Shown here in pieces: positions 36,301-39,300 of a DNA stretch of 64,000 nt. The DNA comes from Siphlonurus alternatus (lineage: Eukaryota; Arthropoda; Insecta; Ephemeroptera; Siphlonuridae): positions 29,304,759-29,368,758 of the forward strand of contig OX463782.1 in the NCBI GenBank assembly GCA_949825025.1, written 5' to 3'. The stretch's first letter is position 1, and each line of letters starts with the position of its first letter. The position numbers were made by a program, and so were the translations under genes. The notes below the pieces were generated by a model. It did not search any database. It was not told where the DNA came from and was given only the letters and a program-made list of their open reading frames with translations.

Positions 36301-39300
36301 TTTGTGCACCCACCAACATCTGGACACAAAGTACTGTCGGTCACTTCAACCAGCTGACAATTAAAAGCCCTCTCATCATTCCAAAAGTCACTTTCAGGTC
36401 CGTGACGTCATTGGTCCAGTTATTTCTGGTTCTAATATTTTGAGTTCAATCTCAGACATGTGTTGTAATAATTGCAGCTGTGAGAGCAAAAGTATCTTAG
36501 CCACAAAGTACTCCCTGAAGAACGAGAAACAATTTTAAGTTGAAGAAAGTAATCCTAACTTTGTTTTAAAAACTTCTATCTCAGTGGCAATATTTGAAGA
36601 CCCTCAAGTGGTACTTTTTCTTGCTAACTAATCATGATCTAGACCTGTTTGAAAAACTGCATTTCGTACGTTGTTTTCTGCACTAAATTTTCTAACAATT
36701 ATACTTTAGGTTGATAGAGTGCAGAAAGTGTACACTCAGCATGAAGGTTTACGGACAAGCCTACTGTGAGCGTGATACAAGACCAGCTGTTTGGCTATAA
36801 TCATTGACCTCTCTGCAGTAGTGATGCGTCAAATTGCCGGCCCAGTCCAGGAAGAGAAAATCAAAATCAGCCTATCTCCCAGTGCCCCTTTTCCCGTTTT
36901 TCTCCAATCGGCCGCCTTTAGCGTGAAAGGCCCATCGTCGTTAAAATCGCTGAATATAAGATGGCAGTTTAAGCATTATCATCTTATATTAGCGATATTT
37001 AAAACCTTCAATATTTTTCATGTGTTTCCTTAACTGGTAATATATTTTCAAAGTGGACCAAAGTTATCAAAAAGTTATAACAGACAGTAATTAATGATCC
37101 TAATGAATGATTATAAGATCAATCATACTAAACACTGCCAACCTTGCAGCCTTTTAGCAGCTGAATGTTGGTCGCTTTTTCAACTAATTTTTAGTACATT
37201 AATTTTAACCGTACTTGTCCCAGCATGTCTGACTGATGATTTTCCTAAGTATGACGTCATTGTTACAGAGCGTGGTGCGTGAGATGAACCGGCTGGGAAT
37301 GATCGTGGACCTGTCCATCGAATGATGACGTCACTGATGACTTTCCTAAGTATGACGTCATTGTTACAGAACGTGGTGCGTGAGATGAACCGGCTGGGAA
37401 TGATCGTGGACCTGTCCATCGAATGATGACGTCACTGATGACTTTCCTAAGTATGACGTCATTGTTACAGAGCGTGGTGCGTGAGATGAACCGGCTGGGA
37501 ATGATCGTGGACTTGTCCATTGGATGATGACGTCATTGATGACTTTCCTAAGTATGACGTCATTGTTACAGAGCGTGGTGCGTGAGATGAACCGGCTGGG
37601 AATGATCGTGGACCTGTCCATCGAATGATAACGTCACTGATGACTTTCCTAAGTATGACGTCATTGTTACAGAGCGTGGTGCGTGAGATGAACCGGCTGG
37701 GAATGATCGTGGACCTGTCCATCGAATGATAACGTCACTGATGACTTTCCTAAGTGTGACGTCATTGTTACAGAGCGTGGTGCGTGAGATGAACCGGCTG
37801 AGAATGATCGTGGACCTATCCATCGGATGATGACGTCATTGATGACTTTCCTAAGTGTGACGTCATTGTTACAGAGCGTGGTGCGTGAGATGAACCGACT
37901 GGGAATGATCGTGGACCTGTCCCACGTTTCCGTCAACACAATGCGTGCAGCACTCGCAGCCTCTCAGGCTCCAGTCATCTTCTCACATTCTTCTGCCAGG
38001 GCGCTCTGCAACTCCACCAGAAACGTCCCTGATGATATTCTTAAACAAGTGGTAAGTAATTTTCTCCTTTGCTACATTTTTTTAATAAATCAAATCAACT
38101 CCTGCAATACACACGGTAAAAATATCAACAGACGTAGATGTTGAAAGCTTGAGAAGAGATCTGAAAGCTCTCTCTCCTCCAACAACCGTGAGAAAAATCA
38201 GCTGTTATTGCGTGTTTCAGGCCTTAAATCGCGGGCTGGTGATGGTGAACTTCTACTCACTTTTCCTGAGCTGCCAGGAAGAGGCGACAGTAGAAGATGC
38301 AGTTGGTAAGTGGAGGCAAATTTGAACTTTTACTGACACATATAGTTAGTCTATGTACTTTATTTTTTACTGTACTAATTGACTAAAAAAAAAAAAGACC
38401 ATTTAAAATGGTCAAGCAACTAAATAAGCATTGTTTCTGTATCAAAATAACGCAATAAAAATAACAGTTAACAGTTTAATTTACCTAGTTAAAACAGTTA
38501 GTTAAATTTCTGATATACATTTATTGCATTAGCTCCACTTTCACATTTGCTAACGTAAGCGTATTTTGTATACATTTTTTTTTTTGTCGGAACTCCGATT
38601 TTTTTTATTTAACCCCGGAATGGCAGTGATGTTCTACCTGTTTTTTTTTTGTTTTTTTTTTCACTTCTTTTTGATGGACGTTCATAGACAGGAAATCTCA
38701 GCCTCGTGCTGCGGAAATTGCCCTAATTGTCGCATCGTGACACTCGGCTGGCACTAAATATAATTGGAGAGGAGCGCTCGATTCTGTCTGCCTCAAAACT
38801 ACCTCTAGAATTGTTTCACTGCAATTTTGATCTGATATTTATTATTTTTTTTTTAAAGAGCTTAAGTTCATTTCTTACTGTCGTATATTTCTCCTACACT
38901 TTTTATTAACGTGATATGCAGTAACATAAAATAATAACAATAATAATTTTGTGTTTTGGCAAGCACTTTCCTTTTTATAAACATATGGTTATAGTTAACA
39001 GTATAAGCTATTGTACTTATGCTGAATATAATATATTTATATGTATATAGTTTTATGCTATTAGACCCCATGAGTTTTTCTTGTAAATTTTTTAATAATG
39101 TATGAATTTTGAAATTTCAAAATATTCTTATTTTAAATTATTCTTGAATGACAAAAATTTGCATTCTTAATTTTAAATCTTTTTACACAATAGAAGATAT
39201 TTTTTTATAGAAATATATTTACCCTATATTAAATACCTTTACTATATATTTATTTATATGTCTTCAAATAAACGATCAATAATACTAGAAGGTATCTGTA

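Follow-up and report, generated by a model that had tools for sequence, protein, structure and literature searches.

A seven-copy tandem array over an intron-exon boundary of an M19-type dipeptidase gene in Siphlonurus alternatus

One intron-exon boundary of a gene that, judged by its sequence, is an M19 (membrane) dipeptidase gene has been reiterated in tandem in Siphlonurus alternatus, placing seven nearly identical 3' splice sites in front of a single exon. The array occupies positions 37216-37924 (+ strand, flanking 7-bp direct repeats included) of the window, i.e. the whole 64,000-nt stretch analysed here (C5:29304759-29368758; genome of 455.7 Mb in 102 contigs). We regard it as probable that this is a boundary minisatellite whose last acceptor is exon-defined and mostly used, and whose upstream decoys are tolerated. 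The seven acceptors amount to a natural experiment on acceptor choice: their final 17 intronic nt are the same, their branch regions and first 48 exonic nt are near-identical, and they differ in little but their position relative to donors and in small hairpin differences. The array bears on the choice between equal splice sites and on how new introns begin.

At 37232-37922 TRF recognises a 101-bp period in 6.8 copies (96% matches, 0% indels), a head-to-tail arrangement of the minisatellite kind (units of roughly 10-100 bp). In each unit the end of the intron is joined to the opening 48 nt of the exon; six such copies precede a seventh that carries the full exon. The acceptors, TTGTTACAG|A(G/A)C, stand in register at 37269 + 101n, with first exonic bases at 37269, 37370, 37471, 37572, 37673, 37774 and 37875 in copies 1-7. 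All on the + strand, the six decoy half-exons span 37269-37316 (acceptor TTGTTACAG|AGC, in-frame TGA at 37323-37325), 37370-37417 (AAC, Ser to Asn), 37471-37518, 37572-37619 and 37673-37720, and 37774-37821 (GGA to AGA, Gly to Arg). The TRF call and the register reading agree, and bear out what the first-pass annotation of this DNA had claimed, namely seven tandem 3' splice sites built from a 101-bp unit. Over 85 aligned positions any two copies show 1-4 differences; from -17 to -1 all seven are identical. The 28-nt pre-acceptor sequence has exactly seven genomic matches (up to 3 mismatches), every one within the array, against none for its reversed control at the same threshold: the array is a product of tandem duplication and not of chance matching. 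Across the 456-Mb genome the array is the sole one of its kind detected. Among copies 2-7 the coding half is as variable as the intron half (5 of 48 and 5 of 53 columns), which speaks for tolerated decoys. Two amino-acid changes fall in decoys and none in copy 7, variants too few for a test of selection; likewise, that all seven acceptors are intact is, with mutations so few, weak evidence of anything.

The full exon at 37875-38051 (177 nt, phase 0/0, + strand) encodes the DLSH and FSH blocks and ends at a GTG|GTAAGT donor at 38052. It follows a 4066-nt intron (33809-37874, donor AAG|GTGAGT) and is separated by a 169-nt intron from the next exon, 38221-38305, together with which it matches PF01244 Peptidase_M19 at 8.6e-36. 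The spliced frame further includes, also on the + strand, the HND exon at 2868-3024, exons at 19709-19841 and 26001-26151, the exon ending in ...GLSKFGK before the long intron (33733-33808), and later exons at 39796-39871, 41348-41486 and 41880-41984, the last containing the stop. From HND to stop these nine exons form one open frame, all nine starting after AG and all 8 internal donors being GT. The HND, GVEGGH, DLSH and FSH blocks are all present in the spliced protein. The columns of HxD, Glu and the two His, which we take from human DPEP1 to be the metal-site residues, are invariant across 25 aligned proteins. The spliced protein has its closest relative in the mayfly Cloeon dipterum, a dipeptidase 1-like protein to which it is 86% identical along its full length; of the other matches among the 120 best listed, those covering at least 98% of the query reach at most 74%. 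Given the open frame, the full set of conserved blocks and the relative at 86%, a functional product presumably is, or was recently, made.

Additional information comes from the rest of the gene family. Other M19 exons form a cluster at C2:35.19-35.29 Mb and occur also on C3, at C5:28.42 Mb and on C6. The homologous exon begins at the same codon in ten other M19 loci of the genome, and this common acceptor position, the PF01244 match and the identity to Cloeon together indicate that exon 37875-38051 is real. At these ten loci no repeated acceptor is found in the 100 nt upstream of the homologous exon and no TRF array lies over its acceptor; over the other placed splice sites of the family no array was called by TRF either (234 kb, period of at least 20). 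Within the dipeptidase cluster there are two period-131 arrays about 600 bp apart (L038; C2:35193468-35194369 and 35194983-35195889, of 6.9 and 6.8 copies), which overlap no placed splice site. Towards the start of the window there is a further exon, encoding a hydrophobic stretch, whose end is at 385 and whose probable span is 220-385 (+ strand). Its probable acceptor (209-219) carries the 11-mer CATTGTTACAG, which the + strand of the window otherwise has only at the seven acceptors of the array. It is probably preceded by at least one more exon, as 94 extra residues stand in the Cloeon protein before the place that matches this exon. Counting the exon that ends at 385, exon 37875-38051 is the sixth recognised in the window, and because of those 94 residues the numbers given earlier to its first catalytic His (His244) and to the exon itself (exon 6) are relative only. 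The introns hold long (GA)n arrays as called by TRF (5285-5376, 7260-7390, 9000-9144 and 13332-13425) and a run of 200 N at 9393-9592, which is a scaffold gap or a withheld stretch.

The strength of the array's splice sites can be judged against 77 acceptors and 67 donors of the family, a set positioned by an automatic procedure that used a single homologue and the expected phase, some members of which may be wrong (68 donors were placed, and one that was clearly wrong was removed). Under a position weight matrix (PWM) from 76 family acceptors, the array acceptors fall between the 53rd and the 71st percentile of real acceptors and are the seven top-scoring among the 207 AGs of the 4066-nt intron, so that their description as equal acceptors holds. 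A site two nt downstream (CAGAG|CG) was considered as an alternative frame and rejected, as it meets a stop at the fourth codon. When any of copies 1-6 is read through from the phase-0 junction after ...SKFGK, the translation gives 16 residues, two more and then TGA. The two residues are Ile-Glu in copies 1, 2, 4 and 5 and Ile-Gly in copies 3 and 6; within the 16, copy 2 has N for the first S and copy 6 has R for G. The read-through product is without DLSH and FSH, its TGA preceding the first catalytic His, and in this all six copies agree with the frame, the stop and the loss of both downstream His that had been predicted. Copy 7 alone reads on through DLSH and FSH to the donor at 38052.

As to which acceptor is used, human alternative splicing offers a rule. 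There, a long upstream intron combined with a short downstream one (<250 nt) goes with exon-defined behaviour, and under exon definition, at near-equal strength, the acceptor closest across the exon is favoured; for donors, too, shorter exons are preferred, although when all human events are pooled there is an overall lean to the upstream acceptor (PMC9225289). With flanking introns of 4066 and 169 nt, the human rule makes copy 7 the predicted main choice, with a predicted exon of 177 nt versus 278-783 nt from the decoys. Use of copy 7 is also supported by the fact that it alone yields the conserved product. Against such a preference count the pooled lean to the upstream acceptor and the human origin of the rule; moreover, the decoys share its acceptor, its branch region and nearly all of its first 48 exonic nt, and nothing obvious nearby marks copy 7. 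In the reading that we favour, the long intron upstream, the short exon, the strong donor and the short intron after it would lead to the exon being defined from its donor, and the spliceosome would mostly pick the nearest acceptor, that of copy 7. A minority of transcripts would use copies 1-6, reach the TGA and become targets of decay, except where a latent donor inside the decoy (see below) were re-spliced to a later copy. The array would thus be tolerated and not selected, at a cost in output that would be modest at most. The first-pass expectation that most transcripts would be truncated or decay targets if the last acceptor were not singled out is, under the human rule applied to these intron lengths, overstated.

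The array's borders suggest how it arose. The word TGTCCCA occurs in the intron just upstream of copy 1 (37216-37222) and again in the real exon where the decoy homology ends (37918-37924, both exact matches on the + strand), and is the longest exact word common to 37191-37235 (45 nt) and 37906-37960 (55 nt). At the decoy junctions stand 17 nt (ATCGAATGATGACGTCA), in place of 12 nt of the left flank that differ from them but can be aligned; the unit is therefore 101 bp and not 96. A microhomology-mediated tandem duplication from TGTCCCA to TGTCCCA, with a junction altered over some 17 nt, may have come first, and unequal exchange or slippage may then have expanded the array to seven copies. 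Variants are common to the non-neighbouring copies 4 and 7 as well as to the neighbours 5/6 and 6/7, a pattern that points to repeated exchange. Upstream of the array, 36943-37206 is a dispersed repeat with 68-86% identical matches on several chromosomes, some of them adjacent inverted pairs, which suggests a MITE-like element. Most of its matches extend no further than 37206, which is 9 bp short of the left microhomology, and one reaches 37214; that the repeat had a causal role in the duplication is a guess. The unit itself was considered as derived from a transposable element and this was rejected: no other genomic copy of its intron part was found, and the other DNA matches are exon halves of M19 genes. 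Only the flank of the array, and not the unit, is dispersed repeat. A second short dispersed element, 80-86% identical at many places, lies at 36702-36767.

The unit also contains a latent donor that was absent from the earlier description of the array. GTG|GTGCGT, 6 nt after every acceptor, is the best donor-like site within the unit. Its pairing with U1 in a fixed register amounts to -4.3 kcal/mol, equal to or better than 36% of the 67 family donors, and its PWM score stands at the 60th percentile, or at the 27th once the homologous exon, with its constrained last codon, contributes no donors. Two other candidates within the unit were rejected as weak, TGC|GTGAGA at +10 (U1 -1.6, as good as or better than only 6% of the 67 family donors) and TAA|GTATGA (U1 +1.0, only 1%). 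With GTG|GTGCGT as donor each period can formally be read as a 6-nt exon, encoding Ser-Val (AGCGTG) or, in copy 2, Asn-Val (AACGTG), followed by a putative 95-nt intron. From donor scores and a path model, the first of these would run from the latent donor at 37275 to the acceptor of copy 2 (37275-37369), and five more would occupy 37376-37470, 37477-37571, 37578-37672, 37679-37773 and 37780-37874, all on the + strand. Since the donor lies inside every copy, a decoy choice could be rescued in frame, and would be if that donor were re-spliced to a later copy. The equation of decoy use with truncation, made at first pass, therefore stands for transcripts that are read through and fails as a general rule, as decoy use is not always fatal. 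The path model gives 127 acceptor combinations, of which 64 end in copy 7 and would encode the full downstream protein with 0-6 extra dipeptides, and 63 end in a decoy and are truncated.

This donor is the basis of the alternative that survives best, in which the exon upstream would be spliced to the first copy to become available and the transcript then re-spliced down the array, leaving 0-6 dipeptide inserts. The position of the unit's best donor-like site behind every acceptor favours it, and 95 nt is a workable length, given that the family has still shorter introns (55-76 nt in 11 of 59). The balance of productive over unproductive modelled paths, 64 to 63, also counts on its side, as do the potato RdRp precedent of one duplication with RNA support (PMC4974935) and the recursive splicing known in Drosophila at exons with donors at their 5' ends (PMC8605326). 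However, comparable latent donors are not remarkable. Of 77 family exons, this one counted, 22 contain a donor of equal U1 strength within their first 48 nt; 13/77 have one at a multiple of three, 11/77 have one by PWM, and 5/77 by both scores in frame. By this family control the exon has its latent donor by luck, as a fairly ordinary feature and no sign of design. Moreover, in an AlphaFold2 model of the Cloeon protein (pLDDT of the block 85-95) the insertion point lies between residues 322 and 323, within a predicted helix (319-331) that directly precedes the strand leading to the catalytic His. Ser-Val would enter this helix, and the insert forms may therefore not work. Recursive splicing is also reported to be repressed by the exon junction complex (PMC6224609). 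Re-splicing of this kind is unlikely in our view. Its stronger form, in which the six units, each equipped with branch region, acceptor and in-frame donor, are proto-introns re-spliced into graded isoforms with 0-6 mostly Ser-Val inserts ahead of the catalytic His and copy number is still changing in the population, we hold to be rather improbable.

A different role was proposed at first pass, that of a length-variable switch in which copy number sets the unproductive share of transcripts and so tunes dipeptidase output. Exchange between copies this alike is indeed conceivable, and 101 bp is not divisible by three. Against this, a single array was found in the assembly and TRF calls none over the ten homologous M19 acceptors; we consider such a switch unsupported and quite unlikely.

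Acceptor choice might also be decided by masking, through hairpins of TGACGTCA arms around the branch regions. The predicted hairpin of copy 7 (37826-37870, + strand; outer arms 37826-37839 and 37857-37870) has an energy of -18.1 kcal/mol and a z of -1.84, and that of copy 4 has -17.8 kcal/mol and -2.68. Copies 2 and 3 give z of -1.56 and -1.18; copies 1, 5 and 6 stay near their shuffles at +0.53, +0.78 and -0.52. A hairpin like that of copy 7 is predicted in copies 2-4, a mismatch breaks it in copies 5-6, and copy 1 folds differently. Masking could build on these differences, with the strongest predicted hairpins in copies 4 and 7, a weak one in 5 and another fold in copy 1. Yet z spans the whole range from -2.68 to +0.78, copies 4 and 7 have nearly equal hairpins, and the palindromic arms could pair in many registers. 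We consider it very unlikely that masking decides the outcome. For covariation at -36/-18, paired and unpaired combinations both occur and none is clear.

The palindrome itself, present 11 times within the array, occurs 92,925 times in the 456-Mb genome (about one per 4.9 kb) versus 12,053 for its reversed control. With this 7.7-fold excess it is treated as genomic background, and a regulatory CRE array was rejected on the same ground. Part of the excess may derive from repeats. Outside the array, TGACGTCA is found in the window at 2187, 11359, 20379, 21006, 26157, 27356, 36403, 39880, 41326, 44387, 44437 and 46277. Over the 234 kb, 4 of 37 non-array occurrences lie at most 60 nt upstream of a family acceptor (expected 0.64, P 0.004) and 2 of 37 at most 60 nt after a donor (expected 0.56, P 0.11).

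An assembly artefact is the least credible account: the window does hold the 200-N run, but that lies 28 kb away and is the only N run in the 234 kb examined, and the 0.7-kb array sits within a 40.7-Mb contig, its copies carrying distinct variants.

Returning to the boundary minisatellite, its components are known separately from other systems. Within the titles and abstract openings of the mostly non-subscription literature that was covered, no intron-exon boundary appears with two or more extra copies, and there is no other case of seven acceptors. In Drosophila, novel introns have arisen by tandem duplication of proto-splice sites, and their premature stops suggest help from nonsense-mediated decay (PMC2891723). 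Duplication supplies the splice sites in both; the Drosophila cases duplicate exonic AG/GY proto-splice sites, whereas the array duplicates an existing intron-exon boundary in series. An acceptor with a donor close behind also recalls Drosophila recursive-splicing exons, although the ratchet points described in PMC8605326 are tandem acceptor-donor pairs in long introns, directly juxtaposed and with no repeat array, and here the two sites are 6 nt apart.

The closest likeness to the unit is found in potato RdRp, where the end of an intron and the start of an exon were duplicated once and a cryptic donor opens a new intron, as documented by 106 RNA-Seq reads across the new junction plus genomic reads (PMC4974935). 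In the array, likewise, each copy owes its branch region and acceptor to the parent intron, and a new intron could begin at the cryptic donor within the exonic part of the duplicate; every unit is a duplicate whose acceptor and donor, the latter of moderate strength, could delimit one. Unlike the potato case, with its single duplication and RNA support, the array has six reiterations and is known from DNA alone. The reiteration finds its parallel in polyubiquitin UBC and VCX3A, whose tandem repeats carry dual-specific splice sites; the AGGT array of UBC is used both ways and gives isoform ladders without detected regulation (PMC10809524). As there, every tandem unit of the array carries an acceptor and a donor, and many splice paths are possible. 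In UBC, however, a single AGGT acts as donor and as acceptor, and the unit is translated and divisible by three, whereas in the array, at CAG|AGCGTG|GTGCGT, the two sites are distinct and the 101-bp unit is mostly not translatable. The array joins a unit of the potato type with reiteration of the UBC type, and may capture the origin of introns by tandem duplication at a stage that is unusually early and reiterated.
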